64,000 nucleotides of DNA, taken from positions 1-64,000 of the forward strand of contig JAQVCM010000012.1 of NCBI GenBank assembly GCA_028689775.1. The letters are read 5' to 3'. The notes below the pieces were generated by a model. It did no database searches. It saw nothing but the letters and a program-made list of their open reading frames with translations, and was not told the origin of the DNA. The number at the start of each line of letters is the position of its first letter. The stretch's first letter is position 1. The position numbers were made by a program, and so were the translations under genes. Of this stretch, positions 1 to 12,871 are shown piece by piece. This DNA is from Crocinitomicaceae bacterium. GTDB taxonomy: Bacteria; Bacteroidota; Bacteroidia; Flavobacteriales_D; Crocinitomicaceae.

Positions 1-1850
1 GGAGGTGTTTTTTCTGTATGTAGATGTCGCAGGGATTGACGGAAGGAAAATGCTCTTACCAGAGGAGGTCTTCGTAGCTACGAGTTAGCATAACGGAGAA
101 GTCAGCAGAGGTCATAGTACTTTGTAGAAATGCGTAGCATTCACGTATACTGATGAAAAGTAAATAAGTGAATGAGCTAAACGAGCCGATGAATAAAGCG
201 GAGGTCTCACAAACAAAGGAAGGACTGAACAAGAAAAAGCAATAGCTTTTGAAGACCAAACGTTAGAGCAGGGAGATTGGTTTTCAATTTGGACTGGAAT
301 ATCGGTAAAACGATATAGCTACCCGAAACGAAAGCAGGTAAAACAAAATGTAAAAAGAATGGTAGAACAAGTAGTACATCCTCATAATCTGCAAAAAGCT
401 TTGAGGCAAGTCATTGTCAATAAAGGGAGCGCAGGAATCGATGGTAGAAAAGCGGCGGAACTAGCGGATTTTTTCCGAGAGAATAAATCGTGTATTATAG
501 AGTCGATAAGGGACGAAAGCTATTTGCCTCAAGCCATTCTAGGAGTGGAACCGAGGATACGAGCTCACGAATACCATTAAAAACAAGCAAGACATGAGTA
601 AATACCAAAAGGAAACGGTAAAACACGTCTTTTAGGTATTCCAACGGTAACCGACAGGTTACTCCAACAGGCGGTGTCACAAGTAGTAATGCCAAAATAC
701 GAGAATGAGTTCAGTGTTCATAGCTACGGTTTTCGACCCAATAAAAATGCCCGTCAAGCAGTTGGTAAGGCATTGGAATATATCCATGAGGGTTATTTGA
801 ATATCGTCGACATTGACCTAAAAACATTCTTCGACGAGGTTGATCATTGTCTGCTTATGAATCTGATTTATCAAAAGGTAAAATGTCCGAAAACACTTCG
901 ATTGATACGCAAATGGTTACGAGCACCGATACAAATAAACGGTAAACTGCAAAAGAGAAGAAGAGGTGTTCCGCAAGGGAGTCCGATTAGTCCATTGTTA
1001 TCCAACATTCTGCTCAATGAGCTAGACAAGGAACTGACAAGACGAAAGCTTCGATTTGTACGCTATGCCGATGACTTTAGTATCTATTGCAAAAGACCAA
1101 GCGAAGCAACAGCCATACTCAAAGCAATTGAAAAGTACTTACAAACAAAACTTAAACTCACTATCAATAAAGAGAAAAGTGGCGTTCGTAAACCCGTTCA
1201 ATTTGAGATTTTAGGCTTTGGCTTCGTTCCAACGTATCAGAAAGGAGTGAAGGGCAGATATCAATTGGTAGTGTCAGAGAAAGCATGGAAGCGACTTAAG
1301 CAACGACTTAAAACCATTACCCGTAAAACCACACCAATGAGCTTCGATGAGCGGATTTCCAAAATAAATGACCGCCGAAGGCAGCAGCGAAGCTAACTGC
1401 AACGAGGGTGGTTAAACTACTTTCGAGGTACAAGTATTCAAGGAAAACTGCGAGACTTAGACGGTTGGTTGCGGAATCGACTGCGCTATTGCATTTGGAC
1501 AGACTGGAAGAATTGGAGCGAAGCGGAAAACACGAACACAAATAAAAAACAATTAAAAAGTGAGCTAAACCTGAACGGAAACGGAAAAACCTTATTCGTC
1601 TGGGCGTTGACCAAGAACACGCCTATGCTTGGAGCAGAACGAGAAAGGGTGGATGGGCAGTTGCACAGAGTCCGATTTTGAACACAACGATTACTTTGTC
1701 AAGACTCAAGAAACGTGGGTATTACGCTTTGTTGGACATTTACACTTTATTAAACCCATCTTTTTACGAACCGCCGTATACGTGACCCGTACGTACGGTG
1801 GTGTGAGAGGCGCACTCCGTCAGGTTATCTGGCGGAGCCGTCTACTCGAT
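1..1850 (+). mobile_element. Group II intron (3' part; 5' end outside window), degenerate
   Basis: The stretch holds structured non-coding RNA (1-358), a broken reverse transcriptase/maturase gene (359-1785), and a 3' end folding as group II domains V and VI. Domain V begins near 1768 and pairs CCGCCGTA with TACGGTGG around a central loop; domain VI follows at about 1811-1845. The likely 3' boundary is the CTACTCGAT ending at 1850, ambiguous by a few bases. The 5' boundary lies before the window. The intron is antisense to the cassette genes and ends at the predicted R'' core of the endonuclease cassette. The open frame 56-259 on the minus strand is inside the RNA part and is not taken as a gene. 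Confidence 0.85.
359..1785 (+). pseudogene. ltrA: Group II intron reverse transcriptase/maturase, interrupted by three short inserts
   Basis: The protein would splice and retrohome the intron. The N-terminus (HPHNLQKALRQV), RT palm with YADD (1064-1075), QGSPISPLLSN motif, maturase domain X (RGWLNYFRGTSIQGKL) and a C-terminal AYAWSRTRKGGW block are all recognisable. No HNH endonuclease domain follows. The frame is broken at 551-601 (51 nt, with stops), 1373-1396 (24 nt ending in TAA) and 1511-1566 (56 nt, shifting the frame). Removing exactly these three pieces joins GVE to IPKGNGK, IND to LQRGW and DWK to KPERKRKNL, restoring one continuous ORF to the TGA at 1783. As it stands the gene should be inactive unless the inserts are bypassed. 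Confidence 0.85.
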
Positions 1851-1874
1851 TATGTGTTCGCCCTTCCTTCTTCA

Positions 1875-3665
1875 TTATAGCGAGTTGTAATAATTCTTGA
1901 TTTTTTGAGCCATTAATTTCCGTCTTAAAGTCAAAAAATCTTGATAGTCGTCAATACTCATTTCCATAATTTCGGTTGGAACGCAATTCATCTTCAAGTT
2001 GTCCAAAAATTCTTGTTCGCTCGAAAGTCCGCTTACTAGGCGGTTATCGTCTTGCATTTGAGTTTTAATAAGTTCAAAATAATCTTTTGGCGGTTTATTG
2101 CCAACTTTTATGTTTACTTCCGATTGCATATAAACATAATTTGCAATTTGGTTGTACTGCCGTCTATCAAGTCCGTTTTTTTTCAAATAGTCTTTTGGAA
2201 ATAAATGATGAATGTCGCCACGCAACGAAATTAAATCGCTTACCAAAACGTCTTTTGATAAAAAACCTCTGTCGTTGGCTTTTACTTGTGAAGCCAAAAA
2301 CACGTGAAAATATGGACTACTTGCAACGGAAGTATCTAAACTTTGTGGCAAAGATGCGTTCCAAAAAGCTTCAGAAAGTTCTCCGTCTTCTTTTTCTTGT
2401 AAATATTCGCCAAATGGTTTTTGAGAAATTTGTTTGATGTCAAAGTCAAATGTACTTTCAGGTGAACCTGAATATCGTCCTGTCAAAATCGAGTAAACCA
2501 ACCATTTTCTAACATAACTTTCAATGGCAACAGAGTTAACGCCAAGTTCTTTTAGTTTTAGGTAAACAATATAAGCAAAATTCAATGCGTTTTGCGAACG
2601 GATAAGTTTTGGCGAAATAAATCCTGCTGATTTCACAATCATTAAAAACCGTTTGAAATTGGTTTCGTTGATGAAGTTGTAAACACCTGTTTTCAATTTC
2701 AAAAATGATTGTTCGGCAATTTCTGTTTCGTAGCTTCTTGTTTCAAAATTTCTACCCGATAATAAACTTACCAAATCAGAAAGTCGTCCTCTGTTGAATT
2801 GCGAAGTAAATGCAACGCGAAGTAAATCGTTATAACTTGGGTCGTATAAATCCTCGTTTTCGGTTTTAAGCCACGACATTTTTTGAAAAAAAACGGTTTT
2901 CGCAAACTCTTTGTCGTTATCTATAATTTGTTTGTAAAATTCAGGTGAGATTGCTAAATGACAGAAATAATCAATTGCTTTTCTCAATTCATTTCCACCG
3001 TTTTCTGTGTCCGAAGCAATTTTACTCATAGCAAAATCTGCCTGACTTAATACAACTCCTTTTGAGTTGATACGGATAAAAATTTCTGTAACCGTTTCGA
3101 TGTCCAAATCCGAACCTAACTCAATCATTCCGATTGGTTTTTTCACAATACTGATTAATCTCGAAAATGATTTTTCAATTAAATCTTCGTCAATTTCAGG
3201 ATTAAGAGCAGAATAATCTCTAACCAATTTCAGCAAACTGATTTTACCTGAAAAAGCATCAACAATATCGTGAAGCCAAATTTTATCTTTTAAAATAGCA
3301 GGGTTTTGTACTTCAAATCGTTCTTCAATTGGATTGAATGCGATTTTTATTTTTATGCGTTGATAGTTTTTGTTGATAACGTATTGTCCAAGAATTGCGG
3401 CAGTCAAAGCTGTTACTCGTTGTTGTCCGTCAATTAAAACTTTTTTGCCTTCGCTTAAACTTCCATCTTTCAGTTTTACGTTCGGATTTCGCCACGCAAT
3501 TACATAACCGATTGGATAACCTTGATACAAACTGTCCATTAAATCACGAACTTTTGAACTGTCCCAAACAAATGGTCTTTGAATTTCTGGAATTGCGATT
3601 TCGCCCGAATTTACCCAAGCTAAAATTGTTTCTATTAAATGTTGGTTTACTGAATATTTTTGCAT
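1875..3665 (-). CDS. GmrSD-like DUF262/DUF1524 HNH endonuclease
   Basis: This 596-residue protein has an N-terminal DUF262 (GmrS-like) domain with [10 protein letters not shown] at about 25-34 and the signature [11 protein letters not shown] at about 78-88, thought to bind or hydrolyse nucleotide. The C-terminus has an HNH-type centre (HHLFPKDYL from about 486, then N/NYV residues), like DUF1524/GmrD. Proteins of this layout include type IV modification-dependent restriction enzymes (GmrSD, BrxU) and SspE, which cut modified or phage DNA; the substrate here cannot be read from sequence. It is the sole gene of cassette 4. Its stop is 17 nt from the cassette-end core, where the group II intron sits. 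Confidence 0.82.
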
Positions 3666-3711
3666 TTATTTTTTACGTTAGTTTCTATTTAGCACGGTCG
3701 TTCTTAGGGTG

Positions 3712-3847
3712 ACACATAACGTTTTCGGGCTTTGCGTTCGGGCGGGTTTAGGAGCACAAAACTGTCAACCAGCACTGAACTTGAATAGAAGCACAAAGCT
3801 CCAAGTTTGCACGTCACCCCGCCTGACGCAAAACCCGTGTTGGCGGC
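3712..3847 (-). repeat. attC-like site A (end of the abortive-infection cassette)
   Basis: This is a 136-bp imperfect palindrome. On the plus strand the arm at 3718-3746 (AACGTTTT, CGGGCTTTGCGTTCGGGCGGG) pairs with 3817-3846 (CCCCGCC, GACGCAAAACCCG, GTTGGCGG), leaving extra unpaired bases in one arm as in attC sites. On the minus strand R'' is GCCGCCAAC and R' is G^TTATGTGT. The two cores do not match each other; R'' matches the start of cassette 3 and R' starts cassette 4. The loop shares GGAGCA, AAAACT, TCAA and ACGTCACCC with site B. Confidence 0.8.
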
Positions 3848-3854
3848 TGGCATA

Positions 3855-4766
3855 TTAGTCCTCATTTAAGCAGTCTTCCGTCAGCTTTTTGGATTTAAAA
3901 ACTTCAAGGTCTGCTTGGTCTAATAAAAGTTTACCATTCATATTTTGTAGCATATCATATTTGTCAACTAAATATTTGAATTTAGGATAACCAAGGTCTT
4001 CTACCAAGCAATTGTATAATAGAAGCACAAGTTCATAGGCTGAGAGTTGTGCTCTTAATAATGCAGCATAATGCTTTTTCTGTTCATCAGTAATAAGGTC
4101 TGATTTGTGAATGTATTTTACAATGTGGTATAAGTGCCTGAAATAATGCCCTAATGATGCTTGTTCCTTATTGTAAACTGTAGAATAATTTTCAATGGCT
4201 ACACTTTCTTTATACGAAAGTGAGGATTTCATCTCTTTGGAAAGTCCTACAGATTTCAGATTTATTTCCTTAAGGTTGTGTTGCATCATCAAGTAAACGG
4301 TTGAAAAGTATTCCCTTTTATCTGATTGCTCTCCTTCAGTTGTCTCTTTGATATATTCCTCCATTTCGCCCTCTTTGCCTCCTTCTTTTTTTCTTTTCAA
4401 TTTTTCTCTTTTTGAAACATAATTATAGTCAACCCAAAGTGCTTGAACAATTTCGTTGTGAAATGTGAGGAGTTGAAAAAAGCTACTTTCAAACCGCTGC
4501 AAGGACAAAATTTTGTTCTGCTTATCAAACTCTATTTGCTGTTGTCTGTTTTGTTCTCCTTGCAGTCTAAATGCAAGATAAACAAGTATGAAACTTGATA
4601 ATCCAATGAGTGGTCCAGATAGACCACCAAACCAGTCACCAACTGTCCCAAGTTCTTGAAATGACTTGTCGGACAAAATTAAATACTTGATTATAAAAGG
4701 GTGTCCAAGCCCCAAAATAATTGTGAAGATTGCAACCCCAATTAAGATTTTATCTGTTGTTTTCAT
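3855..4766 (-). CDS. Putative phage abortive-infection protein (PutAbiC-like)
   Basis: The 303-residue protein has two predicted membrane helices at about 8-30 and 45-67, then a soluble region rich in coiled-coil character. The segment RFESSFFQLLTFHNEIV, shortly after the second helix, resembles the conserved part of the putative phage abortive-infection family (PF16872-like, PutAbiC). By analogy it may sense infection at the inner membrane and stop growth or kill the cell; this is family-based inference. It is the only gene of cassette 3, with its stop 8 nt before the R'' core of site A. Confidence 0.68.
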   Translation of the reverse strand: MKTTDKILIGVAIFTIILGLGHPFIIKYLILSDKSFQELGTVGDWFGGLSGPLIGLSSFILVYLAFRLQGEQNRQQQIEFDKQNKILSLQRFESSFFQLLTFHNEIVQALWVDYNYVSKREKLKRKKEGGKEGEMEEYIKETTEGEQSDKREYFSTVYLMMQHNLKEINLKSVGLSKEMKSSLSYKESVAIENYSTVYNKEQASLGHYFRHLYHIVKYIHKSDLITDEQKKHYAALLRAQLSAYELVLLLYNCLVEDLGYPKFKYLVDKYDMLQNMNGKLLLDQADLEVFKSKKLTEDCLNED

Positions 4767-4823
4767 TTTATAGTTATCTCTTTTTTTCTGTCAGTTCAAA
4801 GTTACCACAGTCGCTCAATGCTT

Positions 4824-4959
4824 GCCGCCAACGTTTTGGCGCTTGGCGCAGTGGCGGATTTCGGAGCATAAAACTTTCAATACACCACAAAAGTTGATGC
4901 GAGGTAGAATGTTCAATTAACCACGTCACCCGCCATTGAGCTAAACGCCTGTTACAGGC
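4824..4959 (-). repeat. attC-like site B (end of the NERD cassette)
   Basis: This 136-bp imperfect palindrome pairs plus-strand arm 4830-4857 (AACGTTTT, GGCGCTTGGCGCAGTGGCGG) with 4929-4958 (CCCGCCATTGAGC, TAAACGCC, TGTTACAGG). On the minus strand R'' is GCCTGTAAC and R' is G^TTGGCGGC. R'' matches the start of cassette 2 over 14 of 15 bases (GTTACAGGCA, then A or G, then TAAG). R' belongs to cassette 3. The 68-codon frame crossing this site (4774-4980) is an artefact of the repeat. Confidence 0.8.
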
Positions 4960-4976
4960 AGTAAGATTTCTGTTCG

Positions 4977-6074
4977 TCATTTCGTTGCAATAATTTTTTG
5001 TTCATTTATTCGCAATATGAAGTCAGCAATTCTCTGTGTCTCGTTAGGTGAAAATGTCGGTTTAAAATAGTTTATATACCCAAGCAGCTCGTTTAAAGTT
5101 AAAACTTTCACGAACTGAAATTCCTCTTGGGGCTTTGTATTTGTCATTACAATAAGGTTTTTGATTGATATTTTTTTGTCACCCCAATGATGTCTGTCTA
5201 AACGGAGATGATAATTGCTCATTTCATTGTTCAGCAATTTAAATAAAACAAAACTTGCTCTTCTTATTTGTTGAACAGGTGAACGTAAACTCAAACTTTC
5301 CAAAGATTTTTCACTCCAATTCTTAGTCTCAATAAGAAATATTCCTGAAGGTGAAACAAGAATATGGTCAATCTGAACAGATTTTATGTAATCATTTTCC
5401 TGTCTGTTATATATTGCTGGTGAAAAGGAAACAGAAAAATCATTAATCAAAAAATAGTCGTCTGATAGATTTTCTAAGGTCTTAACAACCTTTTGTTCAC
5501 CTAAAGCACCATAAATAAAACTGTTTAGATTGTCAATTACAGCCTTCTTTCTTTCAAGTTCTGATAAAGAATGATGAACACTCTGTCTTACGGCTTTATC
5601 TTCATTTGAAATTATATACTGATAACGATTGCTTTTTTTTTGATAATTGTCAACAAGGTGGCTAATTGACTTTTTTACTTCACTATCAAATTTATTTTTT
5701 TTGTTTTTTATTTTCCTATTACAGCTCCACAGTTTTATATTATGGGTTATTTTCTGAAATAAGTTTGTCGGATTTTGGTTCGTATAAACATTATAAAGTT
5801 GTTTCAGTTTATCAATTTCGTCTGTTAATAGCTGTTCTGTCTGCCTTTTCTGTGTTTCTATTGCTGTATCTAAGTCTTTCAACTCTACATTGAGTATGTT
5901 CTTTTCTTCTTCAATTAGGTTTTTATGATGAGAAATTAATTGCTGTCGGGATATTGCAAATGCGCTTTGAAAGTCAATAACTTCTTTTAAAGATTTAAAG
6001 TCATAAATATTACTTTCTTCTAAATGTGCTTTTAAAGTCTTCAGTGACCCAATTGTATTATAAGTTCTACTCAT
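4977..6074 (-). CDS. NERD-domain (nuclease-related) protein with N-terminal coiled coil
   Basis: The 365-residue protein starts with a long charged helical region (about 10-185) and carries a NERD domain from about 189: GALGEQ (189-194), QIDHILVSPSGIF (234-246) and IETKNWS (248-254). The D...ExK arrangement matches the restriction-endonuclease-like fold, so DNA or RNA cleavage is plausible but not shown. NERD proteins are common in mobile and defence contexts. It has no signal peptide and is probably cytoplasmic. It is the only gene in cassette 2; the start is about 50 nt inside the cassette and the stop 17 nt from the R'' core of site B. Confidence 0.78.
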   Translation of the reverse strand: MSRTYNTIGSLKTLKAHLEESNIYDFKSLKEVIDFQSAFAISRQQLISHHKNLIEEEKNILNVELKDLDTAIETQKRQTEQLLTDEIDKLKQLYNVYTNQNPTNLFQKITHNIKLWSCNRKIKNKKNKFDSEVKKSISHLVDNYQKKSNRYQYIISNEDKAVRQSVHHSLSELERKKAVIDNLNSFIYGALGEQKVVKTLENLSDDYFLINDFSVSFSPAIYNRQENDYIKSVQIDHILVSPSGIFLIETKNWSEKSLESLSLRSPVQQIRRASFVLFKLLNNEMSNYHLRLDRHHWGDKKISIKNLIVMTNTKPQEEFQFVKVLTLNELLGYINYFKPTFSPNETQRIADFILRINEQKIIATK

Positions 6075-6115
6075 TCTGTTTGTCGATTGTCGATTTTTGG
6101 GTGTCGATACTTATT

Positions 6116-6251
6116 GCCTGTAACGTTTTGCAGCTACCCGAAGGGCGGGACTTTTACCACAAATCTTGATTTGAAAAACTAATGTTTGATTTACCACAAA
6201 ACTGTCTTTGGAACACGAAACCCCGCCTTTTGGGTAGGTGCTGTTGGCGGT
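6116..6251 (-). repeat. attC-like site C (end of the protease two-gene cassette)
   Basis: This 136-bp imperfect palindrome pairs plus-strand arm 6122-6149 (AACGTTTT, GCAGCTACCCGAAGGGCGGG) with 6220-6250 (CCCCGCCTTTTGGGTAGGTGC, TGTTGGCGG). On the minus strand R'' is ACCGCCAAC, matching the start of cassette 1 at 8662-8654. R' is G^TTACAGGC, the start of cassette 2. Its length is identical to sites A and B, and the AAAACG^TT lead-in to the crossover is shared, but the loop sequence differs more. Confidence 0.8.
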
Positions 6252-6259
6252 TAGTGCCT

Positions 6260-7750
6260 TTACTTTGTTCCGAAATTATATTGAATACCTATATACCATC
6301 CTTTGGGTACAGCATCAAATTTATAACTTATGTCTTTGTCGAGGTCTGTCGTTGAAGTAATTGTTTGTCCAACACTTAGCTTGTCAAGACTTTGATTCCA
6401 CGTCCAAATTGGTCCACCTGAAATTGCTATTCTTGCTACAGGAATAGAAAACCCCGTGCCTAACAACATAAATGGACGCTTTTTAGTTGGGTCAATTCCA
6501 AGTTGAAACAATGGAGAAAAATATCGTGATGTCTTAAAGTTAAAATTTAGAAACACGGCAGTAACAGCTGTGTTTTTATTTATATCGTCTTCTGTTACGG
6601 TGAAATTAGTACCGTCATTGGCAACACCAAAACCTTTGAGAGTAGTATTACCGTAAAATATACCTGTACTAACAGAAACATCAAAGATGTCGTATTTGCG
6701 AAACTCAAATTTTTGATTTAGTAAGTCGCTTTTCTTTGAAAAATCTGAACTTTCCTTTTTGAACTCATATTCAGAAATAGTTAAGACTGTTTCCAATTTT
6801 TCCCCATTATCAAACTCTACACTTCTTATTTTATAATAACCTTTCTGCTTTGATGATTCATTAGCGGTCGAGTTTTCTACAATTTTTAAAATAGGCTTTA
6901 ATTTTTCAATGATTTTTTTGTCAGAATTAAATTTTGTCAATGACTTTTCAAGGTAAGAAGTTAACACTGCATTAATATAACTTTTTAGTAATGCATTACT
7001 TATTGAAAGATTTTTTAGGGTTTCAGAAACACTTTTTTTAAGGTCATCAACAATAAGGAAATTCGCCTCTATGTCTGAAACAATTTTTAATTGGGCAGCA
7101 AGACCTTTTTCAGGATTATTATAGTCTGTAATATCTTTAAAATCAAAGAGTGTCGAATAGACTTTACTTGCCTTAGTTTCTATGTTTTCAGAATTCCTTT
7201 TATCAAAATTCTCTACCAACGTAAAGAACTTATTCAAATTATAAATTTCACCATCTTTGCTATTATTTAGCTTGTTTTGATTGTCTTTTAAATGAATTAG
7301 TAGAAGTAATAAATCTTTATCAGTAAAACTACAATCTAAGATATTCAATGTATCTTTTTCATTTACTTTTTCAACAACATTTTGAGCAACGCCCTGTTGA
7401 TTTTGACTTGAAACTGGTGTTCCGAACTGTCCAACTAACAAAGAAACAAAATCCTTTATTGCTTTGTCTCTCTCATCTGTTGAAATGGAATCCTTCCAAG
7501 ATAATTTATATTTCAAAGGATTTATCCATTTGAAATATAAATTTATTTGATTGTCTTTCCCTTTAGTATTTCTCGCTGCCTCTGTGACATCAGCATTATT
7601 ATCAACAGAATTCAGCAATCCGTTATTTTCATTTAAACTCAAATAAATGACTTGGTTCTTTTTTTCTTTTAGCTCGACTTTTGTGGTTTGAGCATTTAAA
7701 AATTGTGTGCCTAGCAAAACACAAATACTGAATACGAGGAGTCTTTTCAT
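6260..7750 (-). CDS. Exported protein of unknown function, possible outer-membrane protein
   Basis: I do not recognise the family. The 496-residue protein has a clear signal peptide (KRLLVFSICVLLG, cleavage near LNAQ), a long helical, Lys/Asn-rich middle and a C-terminal part from about 350 with short alternating hydrophobic strands. It ends in GIQYNFGTK, an aromatic ending typical of outer-membrane barrels. It is the second gene of cassette 1, starting 20 nt after the protease stop, so the two are probably co-expressed. No catalytic motif was seen. Confidence 0.6.
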   Translation of the reverse strand: MKRLLVFSICVLLGTQFLNAQTTKVELKEKKNQVIYLSLNENNGLLNSVDNNADVTEAARNTKGKDNQINLYFKWINPLKYKLSWKDSISTDERDKAIKDFVSLLVGQFGTPVSSQNQQGVAQNVVEKVNEKDTLNILDCSFTDKDLLLLLIHLKDNQNKLNNSKDGEIYNLNKFFTLVENFDKRNSENIETKASKVYSTLFDFKDITDYNNPEKGLAAQLKIVSDIEANFLIVDDLKKSVSETLKNLSISNALLKSYINAVLTSYLEKSLTKFNSDKKIIEKLKPILKIVENSTANESSKQKGYYKIRSVEFDNGEKLETVLTISEYEFKKESSDFSKKSDLLNQKFEFRKYDIFDVSVSTGIFYGNTTLKGFGVANDGTNFTVTEDDINKNTAVTAVFLNFNFKTSRYFSPLFQLGIDPTKKRPFMLLGTGFSIPVARIAISGGPIWTWNQSLDKLSVGQTITSTTDLDKDISYKFDAVPKGWYIGIQYNFGTK

Positions 7751-7770
7751 TTTATTAAAATTTACTTGGT

Positions 7771-8607
7771 TTATCTACCTGGATACCATTGTTTAATATA
7801 AGCAATATCATTAGTTGATAATAAATTATTCATCCCTACGCTAAATCTACCTCCCGTCATAAGAGGATCAATAGGATAAAGCATAATTGAATTACGGTCA
7901 AATCCTGAATTAGATATAGTTAAATTGTCATAAACCGCAAACAAGTTATTATCTACATCATCTTGTGTCCAGCCTTGCGTTGCTGCATAGTATCTGTAAA
8001 CGGCTGGCTTATCCCAAGGAATACTTGCTGCTGGACTTTGATGTTCGTGAATGCAGCCAAGTGCGTGTCCAAATTCGTGAAGAACAGTCCTGCTAAATTC
8101 GAGGTCAGGTGTTGTTTGGTCAAACCAACCAAAATTCATAGTCGGTTCTTCTTGATTTGTTATGTTTAAGCAATCTACCCCAATGTACGACCAAGAGCCA
8201 ATTCCTTGTTGAAAGGAAATGCGAATTTCTGCATCACCATTTTCAATAAAGTCAAAGTTGATGTTTGCAAAACGTGTCCAAACAAGAGCTTTTTCTATTA
8301 CTTTATCTCTAAGAAATTGTGTGCCACCCAAAAATTTAACCTTAATAGTTTTACCATTTGCCCATTTTTTATCTCGCCATATTGCAAGTTCAATAAGTTT
8401 ATTTTGCCTTGGTTGGCTTAAAGTATGAAGTAGAGCTACATTTTTCTCTTGGACAGCCCTTTCTAAATATTCTTCAGTAACGAAGTCAAGGTCTATTGTT
8501 TCTCCGTCCTTTTCGAGAATCAAGTTGGATTTACGTTCTTTATATGAGTTATAAAGCCCGTAAATCAAATTTGTTCTCCCGCTTATTTTGTCTATGCAAA
8601 TTTTCAT
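7771..8607 (-). CDS. Metzincin (astacin-like) zinc metalloprotease, first cassette gene
   Basis: From ATG 8607 the product has 278 residues. The zinc-binding motif HEFGHALGCIHEH (177-189) fits HExxHxxGxxH, with a Met-turn SIMLYPI at about 240-246, as in metzincins such as astacins. No signal peptide is visible, so it may act in the cytoplasm or be exported another way. The open frame extends to a TTG at 8661, but that lies in the recombination core, so 8607 is preferred (ATG 8652 is an alternative). It shares cassette 1 with the exported protein downstream, a possible protease/partner pair; the target is unknown. Confidence 0.78.
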   Translation of the reverse strand: MKICIDKISGRTNLIYGLYNSYKERKSNLILEKDGETIDLDFVTEEYLERAVQEKNVALLHTLSQPRQNKLIELAIWRDKKWANGKTIKVKFLGGTQFLRDKVIEKALVWTRFANINFDFIENGDAEIRISFQQGIGSWSYIGVDCLNITNQEEPTMNFGWFDQTTPDLEFSRTVLHEFGHALGCIHEHQSPAASIPWDKPAVYRYYAATQGWTQDDVDNNLFAVYDNLTISNSGFDRNSIMLYPIDPLMTGGRFSVGMNNLLSTNDIAYIKQWYPGR

Positions 8608-8653
8608 ATTGTTTCTTGTTTTTGAATTTGTCAATTGTTGTGTTTTCGGCATT

Positions 8654-8700
8654 ACCGCCAACGATTGGCTTTACCCAATTGGGTAAATACCCACTATACC
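8654..8700 (-). other. Half core site and palindrome at the front of the array (attI-like candidate)
   Basis: The plus strand has ACCGCCAAC at 8654-8662, the complement of the G^TTGGCGGT start of cassette 1. Unlike sites A-C there is no second arm; instead TTTACCC AATT GGGTAAA forms a perfect short palindrome at 8670-8687. The position, between the recombinase remnant and the first cassette, and the missing partner arm suggest the attachment site of the platform (attI) or a decayed attC. This is inference from position. Confidence 0.5.
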
Positions 8701-8790
8701 TATTTTAGTTAATCTCCTGTAAATCAACGATAAATCCGTTTTTAACCGTTTGTCGTTCATTTTTAATCTTTCAAATTCTGATAGTTTCAT
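8671..8790 (-). CDS. Possible 39-residue leader ORF in front of the first cassette
   Basis: An ATG at 8790 opens a 39-codon frame (MKLSEFERLKMNDKR...) ending at TAA 8673-8671, inside the short palindrome next to the array's first core site. It lies between the recombinase end (8831) and cassette 1 on the same strand. It may be a chance frame. Short ORFs in the attI site of class 1 integrons can raise translation of the first cassette, so a similar role is possible. No family is recognised. Confidence 0.35.
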   Translation of the reverse strand: MKLSEFERLKMNDKRLKTDLSLIYRRLTKIGIVGIYPIG

Positions 8791-8830
8791 AGCTATTGTT
8801 GATTGTTGGATGTAAATATATACAATTCAT

Positions 8831-10108
8831 CTAAATATCCAACAAATCCATCGGACTTTTTAATTGTTCCATGCCTTTGGTAGTAATGTGTGTATAAACC
8901 TCCGTAGTTTTACTACTCGAATGCCCCAACAACGATTGGATATATCGCAAATTAGTTCCATTTTCAAGTACTCCGATAGACATCGGAAGAGTTGCAAAAC
9001 TATGGCGCAAGGTGTGAACAGTTACCTGTTTTTGAATACCAGTTTTTAAAACGGCTACTTTCAAGATGCTTTGAATGCTGGTTCTAGAATAAACTCCACC
9101 TGTTTGCCCTTCAAATAAATAAACTTTGGGTTTGTATGCTAAGAAATATGTTCGGAGAAGGAGTAATGTTTTCTCAGATAATATGGTGTATCGATCTTTC
9201 TTTCCTTTGGCCTGCTCCACCCGAATTTGCATGCGACTGGAATCAATGTCTTTAATTTTTAAGTTGATACATTCAGAAATTCGCAAACCAGCAGAGTAAA
9301 TGACCATCAAAATAGCTTTGTGTTTTACGTTTTCAACCGCGCGCAAAACCCGAATAATTTCTTCCTCGCTCAGCACTACTGGAAGCGACTTTTCTTTTTT
9401 GGGTCGATCGATTTTTCTAATTAGATTTTCAGTATAATTTCAAGATTTGAGATAAATCCGACATAGCTATGGAAGTGTTAAGAAATTGTCAGTGAGATGA
9501 TTAAAAAAAAGAACGACACTGTTTGAGCTTTTTAGCGACCTCCGAAGGAAGCATCGCAGATAGTTTGTCGTTCGTAGGATAAATTGATGACAATTTTAGC
9601 TTCCATTGCGAGGTCTAGCGTTTTTTGGTTTCGTTTTTTGGGCAATGCAAAAAAGGAAAATAAGACATCTTTTGTAATTCGGAATATCAAAAGCAGAAAC
9701 TCGTTTGATTTTTTGTTCTTCTTGCAATTCAATTTTGTGAATAAATTTCAAACCTAAACTTTCAATGTGTTGCTGAATTTGTGTTAAGAAAACCTCTGAG
9801 TACGGAATCGACCACCATTTGTTTTTAGAATCCCAAGAATGATACGGGATTTTTTTAATCAAGTTCATCAATGACAAATTAAACCCAAACACAATGCGAA
9901 TACGTTTGCTTATGGTTTGAATGAGTAACACTTCATCTCGGGTTTTGCAAACATTTTGTGCTGGATCCTGAAAATTTGTTAATTCAGATTCGTGCTCTGT
10001 AAGTTGATTGATTCGTTCACCAAAATAATATTGTATCCGTTCTAAATTTCCAGGATAATTCGGAATCACCCAATGAAAATGAATTTTATCCCATTTGCAA
10101 TAGTGCAT
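8831..10108 (-). pseudogene. Xer/IntI-like tyrosine recombinase, internally deleted
   Basis: The catalytic half (8831-about 9430) keeps all key residues counted from the ATG at 9376: Arg32, the KGKKDR lysines, H121-x-x-R124, H152 (GHSSS) and Tyr161 (VYTH), and ends in KSPMDLLDI. Homology extends upstream of that ATG (RPKKEKSLPVVLSEEE) to a stop near 9438. The N-terminal half (9596-10108) has the RIRIVFGFN and WSIPYSE elements of long Bacteroidetes recombinases, but the core-binding (SAM-like) domain of about 100 residues is missing. A further 15-nt palindromic insert lies just after RHSFAT (8972-8990). It is probably inactive. It is transcribed toward the array. Confidence 0.72.
9377..9595. 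other. Scar region replacing the recombinase core-binding domain
   Basis: Between the two recombinase fragments lies about 160 nt with no coding homology (roughly 9439-9595). It includes GACCTCCGAAGGAAGCATCG starting at 9537, a short sequence closely related to the second insert of the intron ORF (1370-1392) and loosely to 48695-48718. No transposase or other gene was seen. Confidence 0.45.
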
Positions 10109-10580
10109 AGAACGTATAAACTGAATGTCGCGCTCGTTTTTAAACCTGAGTTCGATTGTAAAATTGAGATTTATATTTCAATGAATGAGTATAATACGAG
10201 GAATTTTAAATAAAAAATAGTGGGCTATTTTTATTTAAAATGACGAAGTAGGATGCCATTTATTGGAAAGCTGAAAAAAGAGAATTTTTAATAGTTTAGT
10301 GTAGGCTTATAATCAGCGATATAAATTCGATGGTATAATCGAACTCAGGTTTCAAGAAAGTTTTAAAAGAATTCGCCTTTCAAATACATCGAGTTTAATC
10401 TCATTTTTATGAAAAAATAAATTCGTACTTCCTGTGTTTTGTTGATTTTCAGTGATCAAGTCGGTATGTTTCCTATTCAAGTTAAGAAAAAATAAGAGTA
10501 CTTTCCAAATAAAACTTGCGGTTATTTTCGATTTTGGATTGCTTTACGCAACTGCATGATCATGCTTCAACACAACAAAA
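10109..10580. other. Intergenic region between recombinase remnant and purL, with inverted-repeat unit
   Basis: No gene was found. An 18-bp near-perfect inverted repeat (AAACCTGAGTTCGATTGTA at 10142 and its complement ending at 10352) bounds a 211-bp AT-rich unit, a MITE-like layout. Single copies of the same end sequence occur at 20766, 53546 and 59528. This region marks the transition from the accessory region to housekeeping genes. Confidence 0.5.
10142..10352. repeat. MITE-like unit bounded by CTGAGTTCGATT inverted repeats
   Basis: AAACCTGAGTTCGATTGTA (10142) and its near-perfect complement ending at 10352 enclose 211 bp of AT-rich non-coding sequence. The same end sequence appears singly in three other intergenic gaps. 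Confidence 0.5.
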
Positions 10581-10614
10581 AAGAGCCATCAAACATAGTC
10601 TGATGGCTCTTCTC
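10577..10614 (-). terminator. Intrinsic terminator of purL
   Basis: The stem AAGAGCCATCA (10581-10591) pairs with TGATGGCTCTT (10601-10611). The plus-strand A-run at 10577-10582 gives a T-tract on the minus strand, 20 nt past the purL stop. Confidence 0.85.
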
Positions 10615-10633
10615 TTAAATTATACCTGAAATA

Positions 10634-12871
10634 TTATTTCTCTAAATACGTCTCCAAAGCATTGTCATAAATGTCTTTTGCTTCGTGACAGAATCCGTAG
10701 TGCTCTTCGTCAATCATGAATTTACCTTTGGTAACGTGACCTAAAAGCGTATACGCGATTTCGGTACCCATCATGAATTCGATGAATGCTTCTTCTTGTT
10801 CTTCACCAACGGTAACGACTACGCGGCTTTGTGCTTCTCCAAATAAGAATGCATCTTCTCGAACTTCAGAATCCGTTAAAATATCAAATCCTAATCCACC
10901 TGGGAACGACATTTCAGCCAAAGTGATGAACAAACCTCCGTCTGAACAATCGTGGGCCGCATTGATGTGTTTACCTGTGATCAAATTTTTAACAGTTTCT
11001 TGCAATGCAAACTCTTTTTCCAAATCGAAATGTGGAGCTGGAGATGCTTGAATGTTGTGGTAGGATGCCAAATATTCAGAAGAACTGATGCAGTTAACGC
11101 TTTCACCCAAGATGAAGATTAAATCTCCTTTTTTCTTAAAATCTAGGGTCATGATGTTTTCCTTGTTCTCCACAACACCAATCATTCCAATCGTTGGAGT
11201 AGGGAACACAGGAACTTCTTTTCCAGCGATGACCGATTGATTGTAGAAAGAAACGTTTCCACCAGTAACGGGAGTTTCAAATTTCAAACAAGCTTTAGAC
11301 ATTCCTTTGATCGCACCAACAAATTGCCAGTAAGATTCAGGATTGTACGGATTTCCGAAGTTCAAACAGTTGGTAATTGCACTTGGCACACCACCTGCAC
11401 AAACGATGTTACGAGCAGCTTCAGAAACAGCGATACACGTACCAACTTCTGGATCTGCATTCACGTAACGAGAATTACAGTCAACAGTCATCGCCAACGC
11501 TCTGTCTGTTCCTTTGATGTTTACAATGGCAGCGTCTGATGGACGATTAGTTGTCATTGTTTTTGTTCCAACCATGGAGTCATACTGTTGGTAAACCCAT
11601 TTTTTTGAAGCAATATTTGGATGTTGCAATAAAAATAAAGCAACTTCTTTTAAATCTTCTGGTTGTTCAACGTCATCGATGTTGAATTTTTTATATTCTT
11701 GGAAATAAGCTGGTTCAGCATATTCACGAACATTTTGTGGAGCTCCTCCACCCAATACCAATGAATCAGCAGGAACATCGCCAACCAATACGCCGTTCAT
11801 AAAATAACGAACTTGTGTAGAATCTGTCACCACTCCAATTTCCTCAGCATGTAAATCCCATTTGTCAAAAATAGATTTAACGATGTCTTCTTGTCCTTTT
11901 TTGATCACCACCAACATTCTTTCTTGCGATTCAGAAAGCAAGATTTCGTATGGCAACATGTTTTCTTGACGCGTAGGTACACGATCCAAATGGATATCCA
12001 TTCCTACACCACCAGCAGCACTCATTTCGTTTGTCGAACACGTAATTCCTGCAGCACCCATGTCTTGCATTCCAACAATTGCATCCGTTTCAGCCAACTC
12101 CATGGTTGCTTCCAACAATAATTTCTCTAAGAACGGGTCACCAACTTGTACAGAAGGTAAATCATTTGCAGAATCTTCTGTCATGTCTTTCGAAGCAAAA
12201 GCTGCACCTGCAATACCATCTTTTCCGGTAGCTGCTCCAACAATGTAAACCGGGTTACCTGGTCCTGCTGCTTTTGCAGAAATCATTTTCTTCGGGTCAA
12301 TTAGACCAGCAGAGAAAGCGTTTACCAATGGATTTTGGTTGTATGAATTATCAAAAAACACTTCACCACCAACTGTTGGAATTCCAAAAGCATTTCCATA
12401 ATGGGAAATTCCTTTTACAACACCTTTTACTAACCATTTGGTTCTTTCAGCCTCAATGTTTCCAAAACGCAAAGAGTTTAATTGCGCAATTGGACGAGCT
12501 CCCATCGTGAAAATATCACGGTTAATTCCTCCAACACCAGTTGCAGCACCTTGGTATGGTTCCAAAGCACTTGGGTGATTGTGTGATTCAATTTTGAAAA
12601 CACAACCAATACCATCACCTAAATCAACCATTCCAGCGTTTTCCTCACCTGCTTTTACCAACATGTGCGGACCATCTTTTGGAAGTTTCTTCAGCCAAAG
12701 GATCGAGTTTTTGTATGAACAGTGCTCAGACCACATTACAGAATATACGCTGGTTTCAGTGAAATTCGGTGTGCGACCAAGGAATTCCTTGATCAGGTCA
12801 AATTCTTCGGGAAGTAATCCTAATTCTACAGCTTGTTCTAAAGTTGCTTCTTGGTGCAAATCGTTTTCCAT
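10634..12871 (-). CDS. purL: Phosphoribosylformylglycinamidine synthase, small-type PurL
   Basis: PurL uses ATP and glutamine-derived ammonia to turn FGAR into FGAM in purine synthesis. The N-terminal [36 protein letters not shown], the [17 protein letters not shown] block and a repeated second AIRS-like half (AHDCSDGG) are all present. At about 745 residues it is the small form, which works with separate PurS and PurQ subunits not found here, instead of the 1200-residue fused form. ATG 12871 ([11 protein letters not shown]) is chosen over 12901 because a TATTTTTG promoter element (12897-12890) lies just upstream, inside the longer frame. A strong terminator follows. Confidence 0.95.

Follow-up and report, generated by a model that had tools for sequence, protein, structure and literature searches.

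The window analysed here comprises the first 64,000 nucleotides (64 kb) of contig JAQVCM010000012.1 (C31 below) in the assembly GCA_028689775.1, a Crocinitomicaceae genome of the phylum Bacteroidota. From position 8662 to position 1850 its minus strand carries a run of gene cassettes separated by three sites, A, B and C, each an imperfect palindrome of exactly 136 bp. An integrase remnant lies ahead of the first cassette, and a group II intron interrupts the far end of the fourth. We conclude that these cassettes probably (about 0.87) form the array of an integron-type system found in Bacteroidota, whose integrase lacks the insertion of the classical integron integrase IntI and would act on an attI site and on attC-like sites. 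A preliminary description had proposed an integron-type array at this place, and the core pairing, the attI sites and the association with an integrase described below support that proposal.

Palindromic sites and cores that pair across cassettes

The three 136-bp junctions of the preliminary description are confirmed by direct reading and by a covariance model, R1, which was trained on 21 such sites from several genera and has no further match in the window. These 21 sites align on one common 20-bp stem, gapless bar a single gap, in the order AAC, one base, the 20-bp stem with a fixed mismatch, a loop, the second arm, about five bases (often AAAAC) and GTT. The distance from AAC to GTT is commonly 118 nt and sometimes 53-64 nt, and the outer 9-nt cores are NNNNNNAAC and GTTNNNNNN. 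The sites of one genome resemble each other, and to that extent their early comparison with Vibrio cholerae repeats was apt.

Within a single site, only AAC and GTT and the outermost bases of the two cores (R'' at the AAC side, R' at the GTT side) match, with the middle positions at chance level. Across a cassette, pairing is complete at 9 of 9 positions in cassette 1 (GTTGGCGGT, 8662-8654, with ACCGCCAAC, 6251-6243), cassette 2 (GTTACAGGC, 6124-6116, with GCCTGTAAC, 4959-4951) and cassette 3 (GTTGGCGGC, 4832-4824, with GCCGCCAAC, 3847-3839). Cassette 4 begins with GTTATGTGT (3720-3712) and retains only TATGTGT (1851-1857) at its far end, because the intron ending at 1850 interrupts that core. 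The argument that cores are hybrids between neighbours, made when the array was first described, also holds on a larger scale: 199 of 258 core positions pair across cassettes in this and related genomes (shuffles 96±8, maximum 126), as do 322 of 378 in an independent set of 80 named loci (shuffles 146±10, maximum 187), where 46 of 63 neighbours pair perfectly. The same scan of the named loci found 101 sites, and none in shuffled DNA. Since positions 5-7 of R' are unconstrained, the core is GTTRNNNRY rather than GTTRRRY. The partial fit to RYYYAAC/GTTRRRY noted earlier is borne out by a loose scan, in which GTTRRRY describes 19 of 215 sites here; a set of IntI-linked sites fits likewise poorly (8 of 34).

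The stems covary: both partners have changed in 17 of the 20 pairs, and pairing is kept in 86% of cells. When the cores are included, 80% of cells pair in the full structure, compared with 30-41% when the structure is slid. Among gapless stems, 79 of 84 have an A.C mismatch at position 14 after AAC. Folding energies by themselves lend little weight to such structures, for which covariation is required.

The introns offer a view of the sites that is independent of these alignments. In the window, the contig begins within the intron, of which broken reverse transcriptase pieces (359-580 and 674-1396) and domains V-VI (1769-1850) are visible; a search of the window at Rfam gathering thresholds gave no match. 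Three group II introns of this genome (on C31, C37 and C23) differ in sequence, and all end in ..CTACTCGAT at the GT^T step of a core. The bases that follow, T plus the core remainder, are TATGTGT (C31), TGGTGGC (C37) and TACCCAC (C23), and the C37 remainder agrees with the prediction from the cassette start GTTGGTGGC. Group IIC-attC introns insert into the bottom strand of attC at TTGT/T, opposed to the direction of the genes (PMC7923331). The introns found here resemble them in lying opposite to the cassettes and at the GT^T step of the R'' core, in three copies; the likeness is one of insertion step and orientation, the 5' exon of the window intron lying beyond the contig start. This common step may be taken as an independent sign that the sites behave like attC. 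A group II intron reverse transcriptase also occurs inside the array of a Chryseobacterium plasmid described below.

These data bear on whether the system, if integron-like, reads its sites as duplexes, with the inverted repeat forming two double-stranded arms and the hairpin relevant only in RNA, for example as a terminator. Such a reading would suit stems that are nearly free of bulges and fold with modest energies, and an integrase without the insertion that allows IntI to use single strands (PMC7790495). However, the arms drift and yet stay complementary (17 of 20 pairs), which is unexpected of duplex arms read independently, while the fixed A.C mismatches and the 1-versus-5-nt spacers supply the polarity that a folded strand needs. 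Introns that target folded attC bottom strands also use the same entry step. We therefore consider duplex sites unlikely and favour attC-like sites that act as a folded strand.

At one junction, near position 6317 on the minus strand of locus L044, the sequence reads AACTGCTAAC-AAAAC-GTTATAAGC. Both cores are present and the hairpin between them is absent, as if a site had been deleted down to its ends.

Table 1. Features of the array and its borders in the window
Feature	Position	Strand	Basis
Group II intron, 3' part, in R'' core of fourth site, opposite to cassettes	1..1850	+	RF00029 match ending at 1850; TIGR04416
Remnant of R'' core of fourth site, ACACATA of ACACATAAC	1851..1857	-	Complementary to cassette start GTTATGTGT at 3720-3712
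Cassette 4 gene, GmrSD_N (DUF262) nuclease-type protein	1875..3665	-	PF03235 8.5e-31; PADLOC HEC-05 1.8e-30
Site C, 136 bp, attC-like	3712..3847	-	R1 112 bits; 20-bp covarying stem
Cassette 3 gene, abortive-infection-like protein (putAbiC)	3855..4766	-	PF16872 6.8e-22; PADLOC AbiP/AbiC
Site B, 136 bp, attC-like	4824..4959	-	R1 133 bits; up to 95-97% identical sites beside other genes, other genera
Cassette 2 gene, NERD-domain protein	4977..6074	-	PF08378 2.4e-14
Site A, 136 bp, attC-like	6116..6251	-	R1 126 bits; sites at most 98% identical beside other genes, other genera
Cassette 1 second gene, secreted or outer-membrane-like protein, no assigned family	6260..7750	-	Open reading frame
Cassette 1 first gene, M10/M12-type metalloprotease	7771..8601	-	Matrixin/Astacin match
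First core GTTGGCGGT, start of cassette 1	8654..8662	-	9/9 pairing with R'' of site A
attI-like region between integrase remnant and first core, inverted repeat GGGTATTTACCC...GGGTAAAGCC	8663..8830	-	Alignment to p80-1-2-tetX3
Integrase remnant, catalytic part	8831..9376	-	Phage_integrase 4.9e-33; frame broken upstream; 83% identical to tet(X3)-linked recombinase
Integrase remnant, N-terminal part, motif W.xxxK.W..P as in intact relatives	9596..10108	-	Inspection against A3 consensus

An integrase without the IntI insertion and its attI sites

Between the two integrase pieces of the window, most of the core-binding domain is missing. An intact tyrosine recombinase of 374 amino acids is encoded on contig C9 (9798-10922), ahead of an array and on the same strand. 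The intact platform of integrase, attI and array is thus that of C9, and the array of the window is the minor locus. Because the window integrase has decayed, its array is probably a fossil or is served in trans by the C9 integrase. Another decayed copy of the window integrase, 78% identical, lies elsewhere in this genome (G000:C43, 24135-24411).

Relatives of this integrase are encoded by 96 of the 150 family genomes sampled, as well as in named Flavobacterium, Algoriphagus, Pedobacter, Kaistella, Cyclobacterium and other genomes. At the 80 named loci there are 100 R1 hits, all 100 on the integrase strand and 98 downstream of the gene, on complete and long contigs alike. Among 296 genomes sampled across the phylum, membership in the close integrase clade predicts sites (27 of 29 genomes against 106 of 267 others, p=2e-8). 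A plasmid of Chryseobacterium sp. SNU WT5 (NZ_CP041688.1) carries a complete system, with an integrase, an attI core at +105 and at least four sites recognized by the model.

One may ask whether the sites instead form classical integron arrays, or CALINs (clusters of attC sites lacking integrases), that an ordinary IntI encoded elsewhere moves, the neighbouring recombinase being incidental. Other classes of the phylum do often encode IntI (84 of the 296 genomes score above the cut-off), and one or two classical sites in those classes match R1 weakly (36.7 bits at L263). However, this genome has no IntI above the cut-off, its class contributes one genome to the matches listed, and R1 sites are predicted by the non-IntI family and not by IntI (30 of 85 genomes with IntI against 103 of 211 without). 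Moreover, 26 of 27 IntI-linked sites have extrahelical bases, and such sites diverge from intI; the sites described here mostly lack such bases and lie on the integrase strand. We consider movement by IntI very improbable and reject it in favour of the integrase that accompanies the arrays.

As side observations, the 84 genomes with classical IntI lie nearly all outside the class of the window, and their number far exceeds what published surveys suggest. Both IntI and the new integrase are present in eight genomes (G150, G155, G165, G246, G305, G411, G432 and G442), on different contigs where checked.

Catalytic residues of the new integrases are invariant. In place of the IntI insertion of about 62 residues there are 20, with residues 276-297 aligning to 180-243 of IntI4 (2a3v). 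The integrase falls below the TIGR02249 cut-off (220 against 265), with matches split around positions 178-238, and barely passes NF040815 (223 against 220), an archaeal XerA model named 'site-specific tyrosine recombinase/integron integrase'; the NCBI automatic name of some members is the same. Most members have an additional N-terminal domain with no Pfam counterpart. The best fold match in the PDB for an AlphaFold model with a mean predicted local distance difference test score (pLDDT) of 88.6 is again IntI4 (2a3v). A quick tree places IntI apart from the new integrases, and these in a clade separate from the XerC/D-like proteins of the same genome; its branches are long and one of its rows (IntI_L231) is bad, and we base no statement about rooting or sister groups on it.

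If cassettes enter beside the integrase, a core complementary to the R'' of the first site is predicted there, and we sought it. Such a 9-nt core is present at most array-bearing loci, mostly 70-120 nt past the integrase stop codon and mostly at 9 of 9 positions, and it is preceded by an inverted repeat, for example TATAGGTCTGA-TTTTA-TCAGACCTATANATAA followed by GTT. In Flavobacterium limicola DSM 15094 (integrase at 9800-10843 of locus L163) the core lies about 103 nt past the stop. Beside the C9 integrase the attI motif matches at 32 of 34 positions and the predicted core GTTAGCAAA is present. Divergent subclades have attI repeats of other sequence and follow the same core rule where the first site is visible. 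The base preceding GTT is A in 20 compared attI sequences and mostly C in the sites, which places the predicted crossover inside GTT. A single attI consensus had been tried and was set aside in favour of prediction from the first-site core, as it scored poorly for many integrases whose subclade repeats differ. In the window, the segment 8663-8830 aligns, with a score of 140 against at most 64 in shuffles, to the stretch of plasmid p80-1-2-tetX3 that separates tet(X3) from the integrase fragment; an earlier view that the window had lost its attI was dropped once this homologous region was found.

Spread, cargo and resistance genes

Surveys that select IntI and classical attC models report few integrons in Bacteroidota (PMC9024848, PMC2426708). 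In contrast, R1 matches at E<=1e-6 occur in 123 of the 150 family genomes and 133 of the 296 phylum genomes (45%). Those of this genome lie on C9, C19, C22, C25, C31, C33, C37, C40 and C48, often at contig ends. When the whole window array was used as a DNA query, 76 of the 150 family genomes matched, nearly all at sites A and B and at no more than 98% identity, and the genes of the array almost never matched. Sites common to several genera with different genes between them are expected of moving cassettes and not of fixed intergenic sequence. Site B as a DNA query found no match in plasmids, phages or E. coli genomes.

The preliminary description had named two findings that would speak against cassettes, namely that the sites were ends of unrelated transposons or intergenic repeats in a fixed gene order. 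Both are ruled out, as near-identical sites recur alone and beside different genes. A further alternative is a family of dispersed intergenic repeats, carried around by some other element, with homologous recombination reshuffling them; it would account for sites of up to 98% identity beside unrelated genes. It does not predict cassette-wise pairing of cores, an attI core past the integrase or exclusive downstream co-orientation, and we regard it as extremely improbable next to an integron-type array.

Among 76 well-delimited cassettes, 51 contain a single open reading frame; the median length is 864 bp, and 87 of 98 reading frames are oriented along the array. The 89 cassette proteins include restriction enzymes and methylases (AccI, Eco47II and Eco57I types), GmrSD, AIPR, HNH, Schlafen-type helicase, MutH and sorted secreted proteins. 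The arrays thus bear restriction, abortive-infection and related genes, many of them for defence against viruses. In the window, the GmrSD-type and AbiC/AbiP-like proteins are candidate defence genes, and the protein of the second gene in cassette 1 matches nothing in Pfam or PADLOC. In the single-contig genome G417, at least 10 sites extend over 40 kb as a CALIN-like array (C1, 2618000-2672000; loci L271-L273).

Two plasmids of Gammaproteobacteria carry resistance genes in similar surroundings. On p80-1-2-tetX3 of Acinetobacter indicus (NZ_CP041297.1, 6238-8375 of locus L285), tet(X3) lies between an integrase fragment with an attI-like region and a truncated site. The fragment is 83% identical to the window remnant, and the half site behind tet(X3) best matches a site on C22 of this genome (score 89 against 48). 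Linkage of xerD and tet(X3) is already known (PMC7758954); the explanation that this context may be a piece of an integron-type platform is new here. The xerD(tpnF)-tet(X3)-resolvase-ISCR2 region of Acinetobacter plasmids shares with the window system this integrase fragment, a homologous attI-like region and the half site, and differs in that integrase and site are both truncated. Its start core GTTATGTGC and downstream R'' GCTACTAAC are mismatched, and tet(X3) in its present state therefore does not form a single intact cassette. On an Aeromonas veronii plasmid (NZ_CP083462.1, 6133-7754 of locus L286), blaVEB-3 starts 111 nt past a more distant fragment of this integrase family; the interval between them holds an inverted repeat resembling that of attI, and the core GTTAGCGGT at +75. 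Both contexts point to a passage of genes from this system into gammaproteobacterial plasmids.

Proposed mechanism and relation to known systems

The sites, their covarying stems, the cassette-wise pairing of cores, the attI cores, the co-location and co-orientation of the integrase and the exchange of sites between genera with different genes can all be read directly from the sequences. They are consistent with a Xer/IntI-like tyrosine recombinase that would recognise attI just past its own gene, as an inverted repeat and then GTT, and also the attC-like sites borne by gene cassettes. Crossover would fall inside GTT, so that each cassette would be bounded by a GTT.. of its own and, at the opposite end, by the ..AAC that matches it. 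Such cassettes would circulate and enter at attI, and the covariation suggests that the recombinase acts on a single folded strand of each site.

Several observations weigh against this interpretation. Some array-bearing genomes have no close integrase, such as G417, where none lies within ~15 kb of the array end, and two of the 29 genomes with a close-clade integrase have no R1 site. The integrase of the window itself is broken. About 30% of sites in the loose scan have a bulge, mostly of one base. The single-strand folding energies of sites A-C are only modestly below those of shuffles, and the minus strand of site A folds no better than shuffles. The evidence is drawn from sequences of one genome per species, in which neither recombination nor circular cassettes nor polymorphism between strains was observed.

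Classical IntI integrons and CALINs share with the new arrays tandem cassettes of one orientation, mostly with single reading frames, folded palindromic sites with AAC and GTT cores, hybrid cores, an attI beside the integrase, and defence and other accessory cargo, and the best fold match of the integrase is IntI4. The preliminary suggestion that the family may be distinct is strengthened by the differences. The new integrase is without the IntI insertion, below the TIGR02249 cut-off and in most members extended by an N-terminal domain; the array follows the integrase gene at its 3' end and shares its strand, whereas a classical array usually diverges from intI; and the core is GTTRNNNRY. Extrahelical bases in attC are needed by IntI. 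The new stems mostly lack them (54 of 173 sites of the new family in the loose scan have bulges) and have the fixed A.C mismatch instead. As integrase and site differ from their classical counterparts together, the strand may be recognised in another way.

XerC, XerD and XerA with dif-like sites, and CTXphi-type elements that exploit Xer, resemble the new system in having catalytic and core-binding domains without an I2 helix, and the integrase passes NF040815. They differ in that the new system has a cassette array, an attI and hairpin sites, and its integrases form a clade separate from the XerC/D-like proteins of the genome. The origin of integrons has been discussed as the gain of an I2 helix by a Xer-like recombinase, and the missing intermediates have been lamented (PMC7790495, PMC4792948), while surveys define the family by IntI with its additional domain (PMC2426708, PMC9668308). 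A natural integrase without I2, together with sites that look folded, makes the need for I2 in hairpin recombination directly testable. In the openly accessible papers searched, we found no description of such a system in Bacteroidota; subscription papers and preprints lay outside this search, and priority is uncertain.

On a broader view, these arrays may represent a second, phylum-wide integron lineage in which hairpin cassettes are exchanged by an integrase that never had or has lost the I2 helix, and from which resistance genes, tet(X3) and blaVEB among them, left Bacteroidota. We hold this view tentatively, its odds being slightly better than even.

Beyond the array, between the integrase remnant and a purL-like gene, the window contains a 29-nt inverted repeat at 10139-10355, whose arms are 83% complementary and 159 nt apart.

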